From Desulfomicrobium sp. (GTDB taxonomy: Bacteria; Desulfobacterota; Desulfovibrionia; Desulfovibrionales; Desulfomicrobiaceae): a stretch of DNA of 42,358 bases. The translations under genes were made by a program, and so were the position numbers. Shown here in pieces: positions 34,487-42,358 of this stretch (its first letter is position 1; each line of letters begins with the position of its first letter). A model generated the notes under the pieces. It saw only the letters and a program-made list of their open reading frames with translations. It was not told where the DNA came from and did no database searches. The DNA lies in contig JANJWV010000212.1 of the NCBI GenBank assembly GCA_024709365.1, forward strand, positions 1-42,358, written 5' to 3'.

Positions 34487-34564
34487 GCCCCCATAGCTCA
34501 GGTGGATAGAGCACAGGATTCCTAATCCTGGTTTGCCCATGTTCGAGTCATGGTGGGGGCACCA
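34487..34564 (+). tRNA. tRNA-Arg(CCT), intact
   Basis: The cloverleaf is complete. The acceptor stem is GCCCCCA (34487-34493) with TGGGGGC, then discriminator A and an encoded CCA ending at 34564. The D-stem is GCTC/GAGC; the anticodon stem CAGGA/TCCTG frames the loop TTCCTAA, giving anticodon CCT; the T-stem is CCATG/CATGG around TTCGAGT. It decodes AGG. Its 3' end is repeated three more times downstream. Confidence 0.96.
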
Positions 34565-34565
34565 G
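34524..34565 (+). repeat. att-like site 1 (3' end of tRNA-Arg)
   Basis: This is the reference copy of the repeated 3' tRNA segment. Bases 34527-34565 recur exactly (39 of 39) at 36042-36080. Bases 34524-34565 recur with 34 of 42 identities at 37815-37856, and 34540-34567 recur with 27 of 28 at 42053-42080. Confidence 0.9.
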
Positions 34566-34570
34566 ATGAT

Positions 34571-34611
34571 AAAAAGATCCGGCTAGTTAGACACTAGTCG
34601 GATCTTTTTTG
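34571..34611 (+). terminator. tRNA-Arg terminator
   Basis: AAAAAGATCCG (34571-34581) pairs with CGGATCTTTTT (34599-34609), with an inner CTAG/CTAG pair. The outer stem sequence is shared with the hairpin behind the copy at 37815. Confidence 0.85.
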
Positions 34612-34875
34612 TTTTTGAACATCAGGGTCATCCAGGATTATATCTTTAACAATTTGACAAACACAAATAATGGCAAACAGACACATGAAAGACCGTTGAT
34701 TTAATAGAGATTAAATATCTTTGCGCAAATTTCAGATGAATCGTCACAGATAACGAATATTGTATATTTATTATTTTGCAAAACAATATAAATATTACCT
34801 TAGTGTTAAAATCACTCACATTCTCGATAAAAATGATTTTCGTTAAATGCAAATGAGATTTTAAAAAAATTATAT
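34612..34875. other. Very AT-rich non-coding region
   Basis: This stretch is strikingly AT-rich against a GC-rich chromosome. Short open frames on the minus strand here have composition-driven residues only. No gene is supported. The region lies inside the tRNA-flanked segment and looks horizontally acquired or H-NS-like-silenced DNA. Confidence 0.5.
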
Positions 34876-34903
34876 TTGACATATGAAAAATTATGGATAT
34901 CCT
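34876..34903 (+). promoter_or_regulatory. Promoter of the RRM gene
   Basis: TTGACA (34876-34881), a 16-bp spacer and TATCCT (34898-34903) make a good sigma-70-type promoter. The transcript would have a leader of about 95 nt. Confidence 0.6.
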
Positions 34904-34914
34904 CTTTGAGTTCG

Positions 34915-34967
34915 CGGATAAAATAAATTTTTATCCGATTCAGGTGCAACTGTTTTCATCTGAATCT
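34915..34967 (+). promoter_or_regulatory. Structured 5' leader of the RRM gene
   Basis: Two hairpins lie between promoter and start: a 9-bp perfect stem (34915-34923 with 34929-34937) and a 7-bp stem GATTCAG/CTGAATC further on, up to about 34967. A/U-rich stems like these could be temperature-sensitive or be a site of autoregulation by the RNA-binding product. Confidence 0.45.
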
Positions 34968-35003
34968 TGAATTTTCTTCTCTTTTTATTTCGGAGTTATT
35001 GCT

Positions 35004-35279
35004 TTGTCTAAGAACATTTATGTTGGTAATTTGTCCTGGTCGACTTCTGACGCTGATCTGAAGAACATGTTTGCCCCCTATGGAACGGTGACATCCGCAC
35101 ATGTTATCGAAGATCGCGAAACCGGTCGCTCCCGTGGCTTTGGGTTTGTTGAAATGGACGCCGCAGGCGCCGCTAAAGCCATCAGCGAACTGAACGGTGC
35201 TGAGATCGAAGGACGCAACTTGAAGGTCAATGAGGCCCAGCCTCGTGAGAACCGTCCTGCCAGCCGCTCCCGTTATTAG
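35004..35279 (+). CDS. RRM-domain RNA-binding protein
   Basis: This 91-residue protein is a single RNA-recognition motif of the cyanobacterial Rbp/glycine-rich type found in scattered bacteria. RNP2 is IYVGNL (residues 5-10) and RNP1 is RGFGFVEM (about 44-51), the aromatic residues that stack on RNA. The C-terminal tail is Arg/Ser-rich (ENRPASRSRY). Such proteins bind single-stranded RNA and in several bacteria respond to cold. The start is TTG at 35004 with CGGAG just upstream. Promoter, structured leader and terminator make it a self-contained transcript. Codon use is less GC-biased than that of the neighbouring core genes. Confidence 0.93.
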   Translation: MSKNIYVGNLSWSTSDADLKNMFAPYGTVTSAHVIEDRETGRSRGFGFVEMDAAGAAKAISELNGAEIEGRNLKVNEAQPRENRPASRSRY

Positions 35280-35301
35280 TCGATTTCGCCTGATAGCACT
35301 G

Positions 35302-35330
35302 AAAGCCCGTTACTGACGGGCTTTTTTTTT
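35302..35330 (+). terminator. Terminator of the RRM gene
   Basis: A perfect 9-bp stem (AAAGCCCGT at 35302-35310 with 35316-35324) is followed by a run of T to 35330. Confidence 0.92.
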
Positions 35331-35461
35331 GGACTCTACCGGTTGAAGCATGCCTGGATTCAATTACCAGAATCCTGGATTGTAAAGTATGTCTGTAGCA
35401 ACCCTCTGACTGACACAACTCATATTTTTAACATAGAACGAAAATATAAAGGAGATTGCCC

Positions 35462-35626
35462 GTGGCAAAACAAAATTACGCTTTTGAAAAGCGTCAGAGA
35501 GAAAACGCAAAAAAGAGAAAAAAAGAAGAGAAGCGGATGCAAAAAGCAGGGGCGCCAACAGAAAACAGTGAACAGGCTGACAGCCAAGACACCAGAGATA
35601 CAGAAACAGCCCCTGTTCAAAATTGA
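35462..35626 (+). CDS. Small lysine-rich conserved protein, 54 residues
   Basis: This short gene starts with GTG at 35462 and reads (M)AKQNYAFEKRQRENAKK, then a dense Lys/Arg/Glu helix (KRKKEEKRMQK) and a polar tail (TENSEQADSQDTRDTETA) ending PVQN. From memory, very similar small basic proteins of unknown function occur in many proteobacteria. AAAGGAG stands at the right distance (35450-35456). The highly charged N-terminal half suggests nucleic-acid or ribosome contact. It lies downstream of the RRM gene. A longer overlapping frame in another register (35343-35780) is a shadow. Confidence 0.72.
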   Translation: MAKQNYAFEKRQRENAKKRKKEEKRMQKAGAPTENSEQADSQDTRDTETAPVQN

Positions 35627-35810
35627 TATATTTTTAAATAAAATCAAAGTTATTGAGTTATTTCGCATAGAAACTCATCAGCTTGAGAATAGGCGCAAGC
35701 ATTGCCCGGACGACTTTGGCATTTGGGAAAGACTGACGCCACCTGAAACGCCACCCGAACCGGACAAACAACGGTTATGATCCGACACATCCGGCAGGTC
35801 AGGACAAGCC
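35627..35810. other. Non-coding debris between small gene and IS fragment
   Basis: An AT-rich start gives way near 35690 to GC-richer sequence whose conceptual product (PDDFGIWERLTPPE) is not a recognised protein. It may be more broken insertion-sequence DNA. No intact gene is seen. Confidence 0.4.
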
Positions 35811-35966
35811 TTCGGCGGCAATACCGCTCTGACCTCGGCAACGCCGGACAGGCTCCTGCACCATGCCCATTTCGTTCAGATTCGCGGGGACAGTTACCGA
35901 CTCAAGGACAAGCGCAAGTCCGCAATCATCGGCCAGCAGATTCCGGTCATGCAGACAGAGGAATAG
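35811..35966 (+). pseudogene. IS21-family istB fragment (C-terminal end)
   Basis: This open stretch of 51 codons and a stop translates to TALTSATPDRLLHHAHFVQI, then RGDSYRLKDKRKSA. It closely matches the C-terminus of IstB, the AAA+ transposition helper of IS21-family elements (the A-x-x-DRLLHHAH...GDSYRLKDKR block). Everything upstream of it, including the Walker motifs, is missing, and no istA is present. The following bases up to about 36020 (GGGTCAGTTTTCGAG and on) look like the non-coding right end of such an element. It is a decayed relic. Confidence 0.75.
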
Positions 35967-36041
35967 GCCGTGCGGGTCAGTTTTCGAGTTCCGTAGACAT
36001 CGGTGTCTGGCCGATCCCCTTCATTCTAAGCGCTTCCTGAG

Positions 36042-36080
36042 CCTGGTTTGCCCATGTTCGAGTCATGGTGGGGGCACCAG
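36042..36080 (+). repeat. att-like site 2 (exact tRNA-Arg 3' copy)
   Basis: This 39-bp segment is identical to 34527-34565. It starts in the anticodon stem and ends one base after CCA. With copy 1 it brackets a segment of about 1.5 kb carrying the RRM gene, the lysine-rich gene and the istB relic. Confidence 0.9.
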
Positions 36081-36089
36081 CCGACTTAA

Positions 36090-36134
36090 CGGCTCCGGTT
36101 ACTTGCGATAGTCACCGGAGCCGTTTGTCTTTTA
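36090..36134 (+). terminator. Terminator-like hairpin behind att copy 2
   Basis: A perfect 10-bp stem (36090-36099 with 36114-36123) with a 14-nt loop is followed by TTTGTCTTTTA. The layout matches the tRNA terminator, but the stem sequence differs. Confidence 0.7.
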
Positions 36135-36210
36135 CGGCCAGCCCTGCCCCACCTTCCCCACGGCAAACTCCTGTGCGTTCCTGATGGATTGAGCAGTATC
36201 GACATAAAAG

Positions 36211-36239
36211 TTTCCATTTTGGAAAGCTATATATTGACA
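36211..36239 (+). promoter_or_regulatory. Operator/promoter region of higBA
   Basis: The inverted repeat TTTCC-ATTTT-GGAAA (36211-36225) overlaps a -10-like TATATT (36230-36235) and a -35-like TTGACA (36234-36239). It is probably where the HTH antitoxin represses its own operon. Exact promoter assignment is uncertain. Confidence 0.45.
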
Positions 36240-36270
36240 ACAATATGCCCAAAAATTAGACGTCATTCAT

Positions 36271-36585
36271 ATGCACGTCATTTCCATCAAATTATTGCGT
36301 GATTATTGGGAAAGGACACTAGAAAACGCCTATGCCCGGGACCCTTTGTCCGCCTGGCACAGGATCGCCAAAGGGCAGAGATGGAAAACCCCGATGGATG
36401 TCAAGGCAACCTTTGAAAACGCCAGCATCCGGCCAGGGGGGCGAGTCGTCTTCAACTGTGCAGGCAATAAGCTCAGAATCGTGACGTCCATCAATTATGC
36501 GGCAGGGGTCGTCTACGTGAAAGTCGTAGGCAATCATCCGGAGTACGACGCCATCGGCGTCGATACCGTGGACAACTCAAGATAG
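36271..36585 (+). CDS. higB: HigB-family mRNA interferase toxin
   Basis: This 104-residue toxin belongs to the HigB branch (COG4680) of the RelE superfamily, ribosome-associated endoribonucleases that cut mRNA during translation. Family blocks seen are the N-terminal MHVISIKLLRDYWE, then WKTPMDVKATFENASI, RVVFNCAGNKLRIV and VVYVKVVGNHPEYD. The length is normal. The only ATG at the family start is 36271, with no good ribosome binding site. The antitoxin follows after 12 bp. Codon use is less GC-biased than the core genome, consistent with transfer. Confidence 0.9.
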   Translation: MHVISIKLLRDYWERTLENAYARDPLSAWHRIAKGQRWKTPMDVKATFENASIRPGGRVVFNCAGNKLRIVTSINYAAGVVYVKVVGNHPEYDAIGVDTVDNSR

Positions 36586-36597
36586 GAGGCGGGGACC

Positions 36598-37788
36598 ATG
36601 AAGCCTATCCGTGACCATGCGGACCATATGAAGGCACTGGCTCGAATCGAAGAGCTCATTTCGGCCCCCGAAGGATCGCCCGAGGCTGACGAACTGGAAG
36701 TGCTGGCGATTTTGGTCGAAAAATTCGAAGAGGAACACTACCCTATTCCGGAAGCCCCGGTGTCGGAGGTGCTGAAACTCTTCATGGAAGAGAACAACCT
36801 GGCCCCAAAAGATATGGCCAAATTTCTCGGGTCGGCGAGCGCCGTTTCAAAGATCCTGAACGGATCCAAAGATCTGACCGTCAAACAAATCCGCATCCTG
36901 TCCAATGAACTGAAGATTCCCCTGACGGCGCTGGTCGGAGGGACGAGTGAAGAGTCATCCGTGAACTGGGTGGCCTTTCCCTTGGTCGAAATGGCGAGAC
37001 GAGGACTGTTCGGGGAAAAATATCTGCGAGCCTCTTTCAAAACCCTGGCGGGCGAAGCGCGAGAACTGGTGTCAGGTCTTATCGGAAATGCGCGACTGGA
37101 CTTTGCTGCGGCCAGATTGCGGCAGGGAATCAGGCCGGGCCCGGCAAGCGACCCGTATGCCATCAAGGCCTGGCTCGTTGAGGTAGCCAAACGGGCACAG
37201 GACAATCTCCCGGCGCAGCCATACAAGGGGATGAGTCGATCCGAACTGTCCGACCTTGCGCATCTGTCAAAAAAGCGAAGCGGAATGCAGTTGGCCATCC
37301 GCCATCTCGAAGATCTTGGCATTCCCGTAGTTCACGTTCCCCATTACAAAAAATCGAAGGTCGACGGCGGCGTGGTGGTCATCGACGGGGGACGCCCGGC
37401 CATCGGCCTGAGTTTGCGCTATGACCGCAAAGATTATTTCTGGTTCACCCTCCTGCACGAAGCCGCGCACATCGTATGCGGCCACGTGAAGGATTATTTG
37501 GCTGACGATCTTCTCGATCCGGATGATCTGGAAAAGGTCGAGCGCGAAGCGAACGAATTGGTGGAAGACGTGACGATCCCGGCCGAAACATTCCATTCGA
37601 TCATCCCGGACCCGGCAGCGGCAACCCTGGAGTCGGTCATCCGATTGGCCCAGGAGTGCGATGTCGACGTGTCTATCGTCGCGGGCCGCGTGCAATACAA
37701 GGCAAACGAATATCGAAAATTCTCAAGGCTTGTCGGCCGCGGGCGCGTCCGCACCTTTTTTGAAGCCGGGCAGAGCCCTGCAGAGTGA
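36598..37788 (+). CDS. higA: HigA-type antitoxin fused to an ImmA/IrrE-like metallopeptidase
   Basis: This 396-residue protein is far longer than a standard HigA (about 90-140). The N-terminal 115 residues are HigA-like, with an Xre/Cro helix-turn-helix at about 55-110 (FMEENNLAPKDMAKFLG, SAVSKILNGSKDLT). A linker of about 100 residues follows. Residues about 230-340 form an ImmA/IrrE (DUF955) zinc metallopeptidase domain: HEAAH at 287-291 (HExxH) and EREAN around 315-319, which could supply the third ligand. A very strong AGGAGG ribosome binding site sits just before the ATG. The antitoxin should neutralise HigB and repress the operon. The protease domain could cut the antitoxin itself or another repressor on a signal; that is inference. 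Confidence 0.88.
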   Translation: MKPIRDHADHMKALARIEELISAPEGSPEADELEVLAILVEKFEEEHYPIPEAPVSEVLKLFMEENNLAPKDMAKFLGSASAVSKILNGSKDLTVKQIRILSNELKIPLTALVGGTSEESSVNWVAFPLVEMARRGLFGEKYLRASFKTLAGEARELVSGLIGNARLDFAAARLRQGIRPGPASDPYAIKAWLVEVAKRAQDNLPAQPYKGMSRSELSDLAHLSKKRSGMQLAIRHLEDLGIPVVHVPHYKKSKVDGGVVVIDGGRPAIGLSLRYDRKDYFWFTLLHEAAHIVCGHVKDYLADDLLDPDDLEKVEREANELVEDVTIPAETFHSIIPDPAAATLESVIRLAQECDVDVSIVAGRVQYKANEYRKFSRLVGRGRVRTFFEAGQSPAE

Positions 37789-37814
37789 GGCCGACTGGCG
37801 CGTTTGCGCTTTCC

Positions 37815-37856
37815 AACCCCGATTAGCCCATGTCCGAGCCATGGTAGTGGCACCAG
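37815..37856 (+). repeat. att-like site 3 (diverged tRNA-Arg 3' copy)
   Basis: This segment matches 34524-34565 at 34 of 42 positions. Similarity continues into the following hairpin (AAAAGATCCGGC ... CCGGATCTT), so both tRNA end and terminator were duplicated. Copies 2 and 3 bracket the higBA segment. Confidence 0.8.
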
Positions 37857-37864
37857 AGCATCAA

Positions 37865-37910
37865 AAGATCCGGCAGGTTGCAGACTTGCCGGATCTTGTC
37901 TGTTTCTTCG
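37865..37910 (+). terminator. Hairpin behind att copy 3
   Basis: AAGATCCGGCA (37865-37875) pairs perfectly with TGCCGGATCTT (37887-37897), followed by GTCTGTTTCTT. It is homologous in sequence to the tRNA-Arg terminator. Confidence 0.75.
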
Positions 37911-38022
37911 GTTTGAGCTTCCACCGCGGGGTGCGCTGGAAGCCGCAAATTAAAAGTTGACAGCGTCTAACTTTTTGATCAAAGAGTGACTCAAGAGGTA
38001 GGCCATAAAACAATTCTTGCGC
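37911..38022. other. Non-coding stretch before the iron-uptake operon
   Basis: Only short chance frames occur here. The sequence turns AT-rich from about 37950 toward the fbp promoter. No gene or further repeat is recognised. Confidence 0.4.
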
Positions 38023-38045
38023 TACAATGATTAGCCACGGCTAAT
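38023..38045 (+). promoter_or_regulatory. Metal-repressor-like operator over the fbp promoter
   Basis: A -10-like TACAAT (38023-38028) abuts a perfect inverted repeat, ATTAGCC-AC-GGCTAAT (38030-38045). TTAGCC/GGCTAA half-sites resemble DtxR/IdeR-family operators. It lies 100 bp upstream of the ferric-binding protein gene, so iron-dependent repression is plausible. Confidence 0.5.
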
Positions 38046-38144
38046 TAAATTTGATGGCGCCATTCAGAATGAAAACAATTTTTTGTTATTTTTCAGACAA
38101 ATACGTCAACAAGCAACCCCTTAAAACCAAGAATAGGAATTTAC

Positions 38145-39146
38145 ATGACTAAAAAAATCCTCTCCCTGGTCTTCTCCGTGGCAGCCCTGCTCTCCGCGCT
38201 GCCCGCCTTCGCAAGCGAACTCGTCGTCTACTCGGCCCGCGCCGAGCAGCTCATCAAGCCTCTTTTCGATGCGTACACCGCCAAGACCGGCGTGAAGATC
38301 CAGTATGTGACCGACAAGGAGCCCGTCCTCCTCGAACGCCTCAAGGCCGAGGGCGAGCGCACGCCTGCCGACATGCTGATCACCGTCGACGCCGGCAACC
38401 TCTGGCTGGCCGGGGAAGCCGGCGTGATCCAGCCCGTGGTCTCCGAGACTTTGGAAAAGAACATCCCGGCCCATCTGCGCGACCCCGAGAACCGCTGGTT
38501 CGGACTGTCCCTGCGGGCCCGGACCATCGTCTACAACACGGACAAGGTGAAGCCCGCCGATCTCGGCACCTATGCCGACCTGGCCGACCCGAAGTGGAAG
38601 GGACGCCTGCTGCTGCGCACGTCCAAGAAGGTCTACAACCAGTCCCTCGTGGCCGCCCTCATCGCCGAACGCGGCGAGGCCGAAGCCGAGAAGATCGTCG
38701 CCGGCTGGGTGTCCAACACCCCCGTCGAGCCCTTCTCCAACGACGCCCAGGCCATGGAAGCCGTGGCGGCGGGAGTCGGGGACGTGACCATGGTGAACAC
38801 GTATTATTTCGGCAAGCTCATGGAAGAAAAGCCCGCCAGCCCCCTGGCCATCTTCTGGCCCGATCAGGACGGAGCGGGCGTGCACGTGAACGTCTCCGGC
38901 GCCGGGATCACCACCCACGCCAAGCACAAGGACGAGGCCGTCAAACTGCTCGAATGGCTGTCATCCGCCGAAGCCCAGTCCCTGTTCGCCTCCCTGAACA
39001 TGGAGTACCCCGCCAACCCCGCAGTGCCGGCCGACGAACGGGTTGCCGCCTGGGGCGGGTTCAAGTCCAGCACCCTCAACGTCGCCAAGTACGGTGAATA
39101 CCAGGCTGCTGCGATCAAGCTGATGGACCGTGTCGGCTACAAATAA
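38145..39146 (+). CDS. fbpA: Ferric-iron ABC transporter, periplasmic binding protein
   Basis: This is an FbpA/FutA-type ferric-ion-binding protein of 333 residues. The signal peptide (MTKKILSLVFSVAALLSALPAFAS, about 24 residues) leads into ELVVYSARAEQLIKPLFDAY. The iron-site tyrosine pair is in NTYYFG (Tyr220, Tyr221). Mature protein captures Fe3+ in the periplasm and hands it to FbpB. AGGAAT precedes the ATG. The permease starts 1 bp after the stop. Confidence 0.93.
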   Translation: MTKKILSLVFSVAALLSALPAFASELVVYSARAEQLIKPLFDAYTAKTGVKIQYVTDKEPVLLERLKAEGERTPADMLITVDAGNLWLAGEAGVIQPVVSETLEKNIPAHLRDPENRWFGLSLRARTIVYNTDKVKPADLGTYADLADPKWKGRLLLRTSKKVYNQSLVAALIAERGEAEAEKIVAGWVSNTPVEPFSNDAQAMEAVAAGVGDVTMVNTYYFGKLMEEKPASPLAIFWPDQDGAGVHVNVSGAGITTHAKHKDEAVKLLEWLSSAEAQSLFASLNMEYPANPAVPADERVAAWGGFKSSTLNVAKYGEYQAAAIKLMDRVGYK

Positions 39147-39147
39147 G

Positions 39148-40821
39148 ATGCCGGCGGCCCAACCCCACATGCACGCGGAACCGGGCGGGTCGCCCTCCCG
39201 GTTCCGCTTCGCCGCGAACCGTCCCGCCGGCCTGCTCCTGCCCGCAGCGCTCATCGCGGGCGTGGCCGCGCTCCCCATCGCCGTCCTGCTGTACTCCTTC
39301 CTCTCGCCGGAGCGGGAGATCTGGGCGCACCTGGCGGAACACGTCCTGCCGGACCTCGTCGGCAACACCCTGCTCCTCCTGGCCTGCGTGATCCCGCTGA
39401 CGTCCGTCATCGGCATCGGCATGGGGTGGCTGACCGCTGCCTGCGACTACCCGGGCCGGAAATTCTTCTCCTGGGCCCTGACCCTGCCCATGGCCGTCCC
39501 GCCCTACGTCTTCGCCTTCGTCTACCTGGGCCTGCTCGATTTCACCGGGCCCGTGCAGACCGCCATCCGCACGGTTTTCCCCGGCGCGGGCTTCGTGGAC
39601 ATCCGCAACGTCTTCGGCGTTGCCGCCATTCTTTCCCTCGCCTTCTACCCGTACGTCTTTCTGCTGTGCCGCAGCGCCTTCCTCACCCAGGGCCGCACGG
39701 CCATGGAAGCGGCGCAGACCCTCGGGCTGTCGACCACCAGGGCGTTTTTCCGCGTCTGCGTGCCCATGGCGCGCCCCTGGATCGCGGCGGGCCTGACGCT
39801 CGTGTGCATGGAAACCCTGGCCGACTTCGGCGCGGTCTCCATCTTCAACTACGACACGTTCACCACGGCCATCTACAAGGCCTGGTTCGGCCTCTTTTCC
39901 CTGAACGCCGCCTCGCAGCTTTCCGCCGTGCTCGTGGCCTTCGTCCTGGCCGCCCTGGTGCTGGAGCAGCGCTTCCGGGCCAGGCTGCGCTTCACCGGAG
40001 CCGAACGCACCGGCGGCGCGCAGCTGCGCCTGCGGCTGACCGGGGCGCGCGGCTGGCTCGCCTTCGCGGTGTCCGTCCTGGTCTTTGTCCTCGCCTTCGC
40101 CCTGCCCTGCCTGCAACTTCTGGTCTGGGCCTGGGAGGCGGCCGGCCCCGCCCTGTCGCGCTATGTCGACCTCGGCACGAACACGCTGATCCTGGGTCTG
40201 CTAACCGCCGCCGTCACGTCCGCCGCGTCGCTCCTGCTGGCCTGCGCCAGACGCATCGCGCCCGGTTCGGACTGGCTCGTCAAGATCGCGACCCTGGGCT
40301 ACGCCATGCCGGGCACCATCCTGGCCGTGGGCATCTTCATCCCCGCGGCCTGGTTCGACAACGCCATGCTCGACATGATTTCGGCCGCCACGGGCATCGC
40401 CTTGAGCCCGTTCATCCAGGGCTCCCTCGGCCTGCTCGTGGCCGCGTATGCCGTCCGTTTCCTGGCCGCCGGGTTCGGGTCCGTGGACAGCGCCATGCAG
40501 CGCATCACGCCCTCCATCACCGACGCGGCCAGGACCATGGGCTGCCGCGGCGCGGCCCTGCTGCGGCGCGTGTACCTGCCCATGACCCGCACCGGACTGC
40601 TCACGGCCGCCATTCTGGTGCTTGTCGACGTCATGAAGGAGCTGCCCGTCACCCTGATGATGCGCCCCTTCGGCTGGGACACCCTGGCCGTGAAAATCTA
40701 CGAATTCACCTCCGAGGGCGAGTGGCGGCTGGCGGCGGCGCCCGCCCTGGCCCTCGTCGCCGCCGGCCTTCTGCCCATCATGCTCCTCACCCGCAAAACC
40801 GAGACACGGAAGCAGTCATGA
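39148..40821 (+). CDS. fbpB: Ferric-iron ABC transporter, fused permease
   Basis: This 557-residue membrane protein has two tandem permease units (about 12 helices), the FbpB arrangement. Each half shows an EAA loop: EAAQTLGLSTTRAFFRVCVPM in the first and DAARTMGCRGAALLRRVYLPM in the second. ATG at 39148 follows the fbpA stop; an in-frame GTG at 39130 inside fbpA is possible. No good ribosome binding site is visible, so translation is probably coupled. It overlaps fbpC by 4 bp (ATGA). Confidence 0.92.
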   Translation: MPAAQPHMHAEPGGSPSRFRFAANRPAGLLLPAALIAGVAALPIAVLLYSFLSPEREIWAHLAEHVLPDLVGNTLLLLACVIPLTSVIGIGMGWLTAACDYPGRKFFSWALTLPMAVPPYVFAFVYLGLLDFTGPVQTAIRTVFPGAGFVDIRNVFGVAAILSLAFYPYVFLLCRSAFLTQGRTAMEAAQTLGLSTTRAFFRVCVPMARPWIAAGLTLVCMETLADFGAVSIFNYDTFTTAIYKAWFGLFSLNAASQLSAVLVAFVLAALVLEQRFRARLRFTGAERTGGAQLRLRLTGARGWLAFAVSVLVFVLAFALPCLQLLVWAWEAAGPALSRYVDLGTNTLILGLLTAAVTSAASLLLACARRIAPGSDWLVKIATLGYAMPGTILAVGIFIPAAWFDNAMLDMISAATGIALSPFIQGSLGLLVAAYAVRFLAAGFGSVDSAMQRITPSITDAARTMGCRGAALLRRVYLPMTRTGLLTAAILVLVDVMKELPVTLMMRPFGWDTLAVKIYEFTSEGEWRLAAAPALALVAAGLLPIMLLTRKTETRKQS

Positions 40822-41882
40822 ACCCATTCCTGCAGGTCGACAGACTGACCAAACACTACGGCGCCCACCGCGTGGCCGACGGCATCTCCTTCCAACTCGA
40901 AAAGGGCGAGATCGGCTGTCTGCTGGGGCCCAGCGGCTGCGGCAAGACCACGCTGCTGCGCAGCATCGCGGGGTTCGAGAACATCGAATCCGGCAGCATC
41001 GTCCTTGACGGTGAGATCGTCTCCGGCCCGCGCTTCGTGCCGGCTGAAGAGCGCCGCATCGGCATGGTTTTCCAGGATTACGCCCTCTTCCCGCACCTGA
41101 CCGTGGCCGGCAACGTCGGCTTCGGGCTGTCCGGCATGGAAAAAGGCAGGCGGCAGGCCATCGTGCGCACGATGCTCGATACCGTGGGGCTGGCCGACTC
41201 CGGCCACAAGTACCCCTACGAGCTCTCCGGCGGACAGCAGCAGCGCGTGGCCCTGGCCCGCGCCCTGGCCCCGGAGCCGCGCCTGCTCCTCATGGACGAG
41301 CCCTTCTCCAATCTCGACGTCTCCCTGCGGGAATCCCTGTCCAGGGAGATCCGCTCCATCCTGAAGCAGCGAGGCATCACGGCCCTGCTGGTCACGCACA
41401 ACCAGCACGAGGCTTACGCCATGGCGGACAGGATCGGCGTCATCTCCTGCGGGACCATGCACCAGTGGGGCACGCCCCACGAGGTCTACCACCGCCCGGC
41501 CACGGTCACGGTGGCCGGGTTCGTCGGGGAAGGCACGTTCATCGGTGGCAGGGTCGGCGGCGGAAGGCTGCACTGCGGGCTCGGGGAATTCCGGGTGCGT
41601 GCCGAAGCGGATGCGGCAGGGGTTCAGGTGCTGGTACGCCCCGAGGATGTGGTGCACGACGACGCGAGCCCCTTCAAGGCCGAGATCACCTCCCGGACCT
41701 TCCGCGGGTCGAGCATCCTCTACTCCCTGCGCCTGGATACCGGGGACACGGTCCTGGCCCAGGTGCCCAGCCACCACGACCACGCCGTCGGCGAAAGACT
41801 CGGCATCCGCGCCGACCTCGAAGACGTGATCGTCTTCCCGGCCACGGCCGAACCCGAAGCCTGCTCGTTCCCGGGAGACTGA
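40818..41882 (+). CDS. fbpC: Ferric-iron ABC transporter, ATPase
   Basis: This 354-residue ABC ATPase energises Fe3+ import. Motifs in order are Walker A GPSGCGKTT, Q-loop FQDYALFPH, signature LSGGQQQR, Walker B LLLMDEP and the H-loop VTHN. A C-terminal regulatory TOBE-like region (about 235-345, VLVRPEDVVHDD) follows; FbpC-type proteins can bind regulatory iron there. The start ATG at 40818 overlaps the permease stop. Base composition matches the core genome, unlike segments A and B. Confidence 0.94.
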   Translation: MNPFLQVDRLTKHYGAHRVADGISFQLEKGEIGCLLGPSGCGKTTLLRSIAGFENIESGSIVLDGEIVSGPRFVPAEERRIGMVFQDYALFPHLTVAGNVGFGLSGMEKGRRQAIVRTMLDTVGLADSGHKYPYELSGGQQQRVALARALAPEPRLLLMDEPFSNLDVSLRESLSREIRSILKQRGITALLVTHNQHEAYAMADRIGVISCGTMHQWGTPHEVYHRPATVTVAGFVGEGTFIGGRVGGGRLHCGLGEFRVRAEADAAGVQVLVRPEDVVHDDASPFKAEITSRTFRGSSILYSLRLDTGDTVLAQVPSHHDHAVGERLGIRADLEDVIVFPATAEPEACSFPGD

Positions 41883-42040
41883 CACCCCACCGCAGGGGAA
41901 ACAGGCTTCACAAGCATCCGTTCAGGCTCTTCCCTCTGGAGCGTCACCCAAAACCAACCGCCTCTGGCACAAACCTTACTCGTCCGGACATACCAGGTCG
42001 GTGCTCAGGCGCTCCCCAGTATGTCGAACGAATCCTGATC
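41883..42040. other. Non-coding stretch after fbpC
   Basis: No gene, terminator or repeat is recognised here. The short open frames are shadows. It leads straight into the fourth tRNA 3' copy. Confidence 0.4.
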
Positions 42041-42080
42041 TTGGCTAACCCCTGTTCGAGTCATGGTGAGGGCACCAGAT
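42041..42080 (+). repeat. att-like site 4 (partial tRNA-Arg 3' copy)
   Basis: Bases 42053-42080 match 34540-34567 of the tRNA at 27 of 28 positions. Upstream of that, CTGATCTTGGCTAACCC resembles the tRNA only loosely, and the T-stem no longer pairs fully. Together with copy 3 it brackets the fbpABC segment (about 4.2 kb). Confidence 0.8.
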
Positions 42081-42082
42081 TC

Positions 42083-42127
42083 AAAAAAGGTTCCGCGAGT
42101 TACCTGCTCGCCGGAACCTTTTTTTCC
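42083..42127 (+). terminator. Hairpin behind att copy 4
   Basis: AAAAAGGTTCCG-CGAG pairs with CTCG-C-CGGAACCTTTTT with one bulged C, followed by more T. It is the fourth terminator-like hairpin in the same relative position. Confidence 0.75.
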
Positions 42128-42195
42128 CGCTCCACCCGGGTCGCGACCCCTCTTTGCCGACGCTTCCACAGCTGGAAGATTCGACGACGCGATTG

Positions 42196-42213
42196 CATTT
42201 GTCTACACAAATG
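42196..42213 (+). promoter_or_regulatory. Inverted-repeat operator before the BrnT-like gene
   Basis: CATTTGT-CTAC-ACAAATG is a perfect 7-bp inverted repeat 14 bp before the toxin start. CTACAC recurs at once on its right. Toxin-antitoxin complexes usually bind such sites. Confidence 0.5.
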
Positions 42214-42227
42214 ACTACACTTGTAAC

Positions 42228-42358
42228 ATGAAAATTTCGGGATTCGATTGGGACAGCGGCAACTGGCCGAAATGTGGCAAGCACGGAGTCTCCCGCGAAG
42301 AGATCGAGCAGGTGCTGCTTGGCGAGCCGGCCGTGATGCCCGACACGTGTCCCGACGA
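42228..42358 (+). CDS. BrnT-like toxin, partial (runs off window)
   Basis: The first 43 codons are visible. They read MKISGFDWDSGNWPKCGKHG then VSREEIEQVLLGEPAVM, the opening of BrnT/COG2929-type toxins (F-x-W-D ... N-x-x-K-H-G-V-S-x-E-E-x-x-x-v). BrnT is a RelE-fold ribonuclease normally followed by the BrnA antitoxin, which would lie to the right of the window. The ATG at 42228 follows an inverted-repeat operator; no clear ribosome binding site is seen. Confidence 0.7.
   Translation, partial: MKISGFDWDSGNWPKCGKHGVSREEIEQVLLGEPAVMPDTCPD

Follow-up and report, generated by a model that had tools for sequence, protein, structure and literature searches.

PD-lambda-2, which was described by Vassallo et al. 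in 2022, is an Escherichia coli abortive-infection system directed against lambda-vir (PMC9519451). The system is composed of three genes, which code for a HigB-like protein (A), a HigA-peptidase protein (B), and a P4-antitoxin-like protein (C). B alone was toxic and A provided rescue, an outcome that the authors called unexpected, and C was required for defense against lambda-vir (PMC9519451).

Gene pairs of this general type were noted earlier. Makarova et al. (2009) already tabulated RelE genes beside HTH-fused COG2856 peptidases, and they compared the HTH-COG2856 fusion with LexA and put forward the idea of a repressor-protease (PMC2701414). Ernits et al. described HTH-ImmA antitoxins in RosmerTA phage defense and suggested cleavage of the HTH (PMC10440598). 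As for M78 peptidases that act on separate proteins, zinc-activated IrrE cleaves a separate Xre-type repressor (PMC7907104), and ImmA acts on ImmR (PMC2701414; PMC10440598). Our literature search found no account of self-cleavage for any HTH-M78 fusion. Here, we analyzed a 42,358-nucleotide stretch of Desulfomicrobium sp. DNA, referred to as the window, and compared a gene pair within it to these systems.

RESULTS

The window contains a selected HigB/HigA-M78 gene pair

The sequence-only reading had placed a higB gene, followed by a gene for a 396-residue HTH-HEAAH peptidase protein, at positions 36271 to 37788 of the forward strand, and both open reading frames exist as claimed. The features of the locus are listed in Table 1. 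The two genes, referred to as A and B, are separated by 12 nt. Close copies with 89 to 90% identity in B were present in four congeneric genomes, and dN/dS was 0.07 to 0.16 for A, B, and segments of B in most comparisons. Because the values were low across both genes, and were similar for the HTH part, the linker, and the peptidase of B, A and B are under purifying selection over their whole length. Together with the same-genus copies and the invariant zinc-motif residues noted below, these values placed the A-B pair far from a chance arrangement.

Table 1. Positions of the A-B gene pair and its surrounding features in the window
Feature	Position	Strand	Basis
Gene A, predicted HigB-family toxin (PF09907), 104 aa	36271..36585	+	ORF, Pfam, PADLOC PD-Lambda-2_A
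Gene B, M78 (ImmA/IrrE-type) metallopeptidase with fused HigA-type HTH, 396 aa	36598..37788	+	ORF, Pfam, PADLOC PD-Lambda-2_B
AGGAGG ribosome-binding site of B, overlaps A stop codon	36584..36589	+	sequence
HigA-like domain, B residues 1-114 (N-terminal helices and HTH)	36598..36939	+	profile match to HigA, model alignment
M78 peptidase domain, B residues 235-396	37300..37785	+	Pfam, Foldseek
HEAAH zinc-binding motif, B residues 287-291	37456..37470	+	sequence, alignments
Operator-like palindrome TTTCC-ATTTT-GGAAA	36211..36225	+	family-wide motif search
-35 box TTGACA, 8 nt 3' of palindrome	36234..36239	+	sequence
tRNA-Arg (CCT), array anchor; 3' 46 nt (34519-34564) = repeat copy 1	34487..34564	+	
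tRNA-Arg 3'-end repeat copy 2, left border of A-B unit	36034..36079	+	
tRNA-Arg 3'-end repeat copy 3, right border of A-B unit	37810..37855	+	
Terminator-like stem-loop, downstream of B and of third repeat	37865..37897	+	

Gene A was assigned to the HigB family, as had been proposed from its sequence, via a match to the Pfam family HigB_toxin (PF09907; E 1.4e-23, 83 bits, cut-off 27) and via intact HigB residues, which are described below. A alone matched the HigB structures 5ifg and 5ycl at 1.3e-6, and a profile built from A relatives gave a 5e-13 match to HigB in the solved HigBA complexes of E. coli and Shigella. In PADLOC, A matched the PD-Lambda-2_A models only (PDLC03979 at 1.6e-27), and an NCBIfam search of A found no family.

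B is predicted to be a complete HigA with an added M78 domain

In the case of the N-terminal part of B, Pfam placed an HTH_3 domain at residues 59-111 (29.9 bits, cut-off 23), and a profile of 44 B relatives gave an 8e-15 match, spanning residues 5-113, to HigA in those HigBA complexes. The structural model predicted for B had a mean pLDDT of 87, and its residues 3-114 overlaid HigA (6kmq_B) with a Z of 10.0 and an rmsd of 4.7 over 108 residues. The NCBIfam search of B yielded sub-threshold matches only; among them, TIGR02607 (antidote_HigA) scored 16.3 bits and fell under its cut-off of 47.7.

In the case of the C-terminal part, Pfam placed a Peptidase_M78 domain at residues 265-362 (30.5 bits, cut-off 22). 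H287, E288, H291, and the downstream acidic ligand E315 were invariant in the 44-sequence alignment, part of which was retrieved with a pattern containing HE; H287, E288, and H291 were also invariant in 12 sequences that were retrieved without an HE-containing pattern. Foldseek matched the peptidase part to Deinococcus PprI/IrrE (8sln and 8slm) with probabilities of 1.0 and 0.98 and an E-value of only 0.01 to 0.06. Since the Foldseek/PDB search of the B model gave no match at an E-value of 0.001 or below, the Foldseek matches to HigA and PprI are to be read by probability and coverage, not by E-value. Taken together, the HigA profile match, the model overlay, and the PprI/IrrE match indicate that the predicted B protein is a complete HigA plus an added M78 domain, which is more than an HTH beside a peptidase. 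This agrees with the earlier proposal of a HigA-type antitoxin fused to a peptidase of the ImmA/IrrE kind.

Relatives of the pair are widespread and mostly lack gene C

Our survey yielded 103 loci with a near-full-length B, which were located in 80 genomes, 16 viral contigs, and 7 plasmids. (For the viral contigs, a scan with a single-protein query gave no matches, and an alignment query did give matches.) A immediately preceded B in 99 of the 103 loci, which came from many phyla, and HEXXH was kept in 102 of 103, although one of the two scan patterns contained HE and this part of the set was biased. A C gene was located downstream in 12 of the 98 testable loci. In the window, positions 37789-38144 contained no C-type ORF (P4 beta-like, about 375 aa), and the next gene coded for a solute-binding protein. 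The C model PDLC03983 had no match in the genome that contains the window (G000) or in nine relatives, and the control genomes were likewise silent; PADLOC does recognize C at other loci.

In the B trees, C-bearing relatives and three E. coli loci formed one clade of 14 rows with an SH-aLRT of 100. The window B fell outside this clade and was 31 to 35% identical to the E. coli PD-lambda-2 B proteins. It matched the PADLOC model PD-Lambda-2_B (PDLC03982) at 7.7e-92 with 306 bits over residues 1-390, and members of the C-bearing clade scored 588 to 621 bits against the same model. Two C-bearing loci, L110 and L146, stood apart from the 14-row clade and are possibly intermediates or separate recruitments of C.

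A few loci departed from the usual arrangement. In L107 and L145, B was intact but no intact A preceded it, and L145 retained a remnant of the A C-terminus. In the G002 copy, an insertion of about 156 nt at the 3' end of A (L045:6818-6975) altered the last residues of A and separated A from B. We considered whether this copy (L045/L005) was a broken higB and rejected the idea, as the change was restricted to the C-terminus of a 98-aa protein and the insertion was located after the domain. Because the change lies past the HigB domain, it provided no evidence on polarity.

HigB residues are kept in the two-gene form and lost in the PD-lambda-2 clade

The window A retains N66, R69, H89, and Y92, which correspond to N65, R68, H88, and Y91 of E. 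coli HigB in our alignment, and their conservation suggests that these residues have a catalytic role in HigB. At least three of the four were present in 84 of the 86 loci that lacked C, and none of the four was present in any of the 11 PD-lambda-2 clade members that were surveyed; this correlation between the residues and the C gene rests mainly on one lineage, with three state changes on the tree. The E. coli PD-lambda-2 locus was detected in 8 of 5426 genomes at the search sensitivity used, and the residues were missing from A in all four of the loci in which they were examined. HigB of L110 and L146, the two C-bearing loci outside the clade, keeps all four.

Since A keeps all four of the HigB residues that were lost in the PD-lambda-2 clade, we predict that the window pair has the classical polarity, with A as the toxin and B as the antitoxin. 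The reversed polarity of E. coli PD-lambda-2 would be explicable in the same terms, because A in that system is a HigB fold without the residues that are presumed to be catalytic. The sequence-only reading had assumed the classical polarity; this is still favored because A keeps its residues, but the assumption has to be set against the toxicity of the peptidase protein of E. coli PD-lambda-2. The contrast in toxin residues between the two-gene form and PD-lambda-2 appears to be the new and testable point of the comparison.

A family-wide palindrome is located beside the -35 box of A

Of 93 dereplicated loci, 40 had the motif TTCCC-N5-GGGAA ahead of A, compared to an average of 0.26 after dinucleotide-preserving shuffling, and the spacing between the palindrome and TTGAC was 7 to 9 nt in most relatives having both. 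The combination of palindrome and -35 box occurred once in the genome, at the A promoter, and the E. coli PD-lambda-2 loci carried the same kind of palindrome. The A promoter was missed by a sigma-70 scan because TTGACA is not followed by a good -10 box. The family-wide palindrome beside the -35 box is a putative operator and lends strong, if indirect, support to the prediction that B acts through its HTH as a repressor of the A-B operon.

The pair is a discrete unit in a tRNA-Arg(CCT) repeat array

As shown in Table 1, the pair is bordered by copies of a tRNA-Arg 3'-end repeat; a fourth 46-nt copy is located at about 42030. The array spans 34487-42123, and most of the copies are followed by a terminator-like stem. 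Its units in the window contain an RNA-binding protein, the HigB/HigA-M78 pair, and an iron-type ABC transporter. In the same-genus genome G008 (L053), one repeat joins both flanks and the A-B pair is absent, which represents an exact empty site. Thus, A and B form one discrete unit, about 1.8 kb in length, that was gained or lost at the repeat. The suggestion that the pair serves island stability received circumstantial support only, in that tRNA-end repeats flank the pair as a unit.

Same-genus arrays elsewhere contained Fic, HipBA, BrnT, or HI1420-type antidote genes at the same locus. The window itself ends inside a BrnT-like gene (about 42190-42358), just past the fourth repeat; at the DNA level, this end was 81% identical to a stretch of G007 (L048) that contains BrnT, and the 43-aa fragment alone had no Pfam match. 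Tyrosine recombinase genes were located beside the repeats or the tRNA in three genomes (G001:C3:349642-350148, and G007:C19 and G012:C1 next to tRNA-Arg(CCT)), and the recombinases are candidates for moving the array units. In G013 (L046:2432-2930), A was cut at about codon 58 by an IS3-type-looking transposase gene that reached the contig end, and no B was found anywhere in that genome.

DISCUSSION

The window pair is a member of a widespread, previously predicted family that is related to PD-lambda-2. It shares with PD-lambda-2 the A-B gene order, a HigB-like A, an HTH-M78 B, and a similar operator-like palindrome. However, PD-lambda-2 has gene C, its A is without the HigB residues that the window A keeps, and its B belongs to a separate clade. 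We rejected the assignment of the window to PD-lambda-2 in the strict sense because C is absent. The pair fits the description of the RelE and COG2856-HTH pairs in Makarova et al., namely, a RelE-superfamily toxin in an operon with an Xre-HTH-M78 protein, and nothing essential sets it apart from them; analyses of the operator, the catalytic residues, and polarity are absent from the sections of that paper that cover these pairs (PMC2701414). The fusion therefore could not be upheld as a novelty, given that HTH-peptidase proteins beside RelE-type toxins appear in those sections of the 2009 work (PMC2701414) and a similar cleavage idea was put forward for RosmerTA (PMC10440598).

Other systems were more distant. 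The HigBA modules of E. coli K-12 and Shigella (5ifg, 5ycl, and 6kml) have a homologous HigB, a HigA homologous to B residues 1-114, the toxin gene first, and an HTH antitoxin, but HigA stops after the HTH (138 aa) and is without a peptidase domain. The antitoxin of RosmerTA (RmrT-RmrA) is an HTH-ImmA fusion (PMC10440598); however, the RmrA models matched the window B weakly, in the peptidase region (21.8 bits), and A had no RmrT match. With RmrT missing and the RmrA match weak, the window was rejected as a RosmerTA locus. In CapH-CapP and IrrE/PprI-DdrO, an M78 peptidase likewise works on an HTH regulator, but the repressor and the peptidase are separate proteins and a HigB-type toxin partner is absent.

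The explanation that we favor, with somewhat better than even confidence, is that A and B make up a bicistronic type II toxin-antitoxin module akin to K-12 HigBA, with an M78 domain in the antitoxin as a likely release switch. On this account, A would be an mRNA-cleaving HigB, B would silence A by binding it through the HigA-like N-terminal domain, and the HTH of B would repress the operon at the palindrome beside the -35 box; homology and conserved sites suggest these steps. By analogy with IrrE (PMC7907104) and ImmA, the M78 domain is most likely the release switch and may be activated by zinc, DNA, or an infection signal. Once activated, it might cut B at a site that separates its HTH from its peptidase domain, either in cis or in a dimer, or it might cut a partner. 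Cleavage would derepress the operon and free HigB, and translation would then stop. Self-cleavage of B, which the sequence-only reading had suggested as a trigger that would not need Lon or Clp, is plausible, but the repressor cut by IrrE or ImmA is a separate protein. Points against this explanation are the weak Foldseek E-values for the M78 region (0.01) and the opposite polarity of the sole tested relatives, the E. coli PD-lambda-2 proteins (PMC9519451).

That opposite polarity could also apply to the window, with the B metallopeptidase as the toxic effector and the HigB-fold A as its antidote. Such an arrangement was tested directly in E. coli PD-lambda-2 (PMC9519451), and the A and B proteins of the two systems are homologous. 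We nevertheless consider it quite improbable for the window, whose A keeps the HigB residues lost in every surveyed A of the PD-lambda-2 clade and whose B lies outside that well-supported 14-member clade at 31 to 35% identity. In L107 and L145, moreover, B is intact and has no intact A beside it, which argues that B alone can be tolerated.

It is unlikely, although less so, that the M78 domain is a sensor or cuts some other substrate, for instance a separate Xre regulator or a protein of the phage or host, and that the toxin is released via Lon/Clp-type turnover of B. The known M78 peptidases IrrE, ImmA, and CapP do cut a separate HTH protein, and E. coli HigA serves as an antitoxin without a peptidase, as the HigBA structures indicate. 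However, no separate Xre substrate gene was found within the unit, and the strictly kept fusion and invariant zinc site across the family suggest a function tied to B itself. A selfish or island-stabilizing addiction cassette, in which cells that lose the tRNA-anchored unit die and there is no dedicated phage role, would account for the flanking tRNA-Arg(CCT) 3'-end repeats, the exact empty site in a same-genus genome, and the toxin-antitoxin-type genes (Fic, HipBA, BrnT, and HI1420-type antidote) at the same locus in relatives. As an account of the pair in its own right, we regard it as very unlikely: it is compatible with the HigBA-type module instead of excluding it, the PD-lambda-2 relatives give abortive phage defense, and the G013 remnant, in which A is cut by an IS-like insertion and B is gone, indicates that the module can be lost. 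As for the link to phage defense that the sequence-only reading had raised, it is real for the related three-gene PD-lambda-2 system (PMC9519451).

The toxin-antitoxin module in the window is one of hundreds, and its value lies in the comparison with PD-lambda-2. We tentatively suggest, at slightly less than even confidence, that polarity switched within the family: HigB would be a live toxin in the widespread two-gene form that includes the window pair, whereas in the derived three-gene PD-lambda-2 lineage HigB would have lost its active site and become the antidote, the HTH-M78 protein the toxic effector, and a third gene would have been recruited. The conserved putative operator could be used as a reporter in screens for the trigger. 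The roles of toxin and antitoxin may thus have swapped in one lineage, and, if true, such a switch would show a toxin-antitoxin pair rewired into a defense system.
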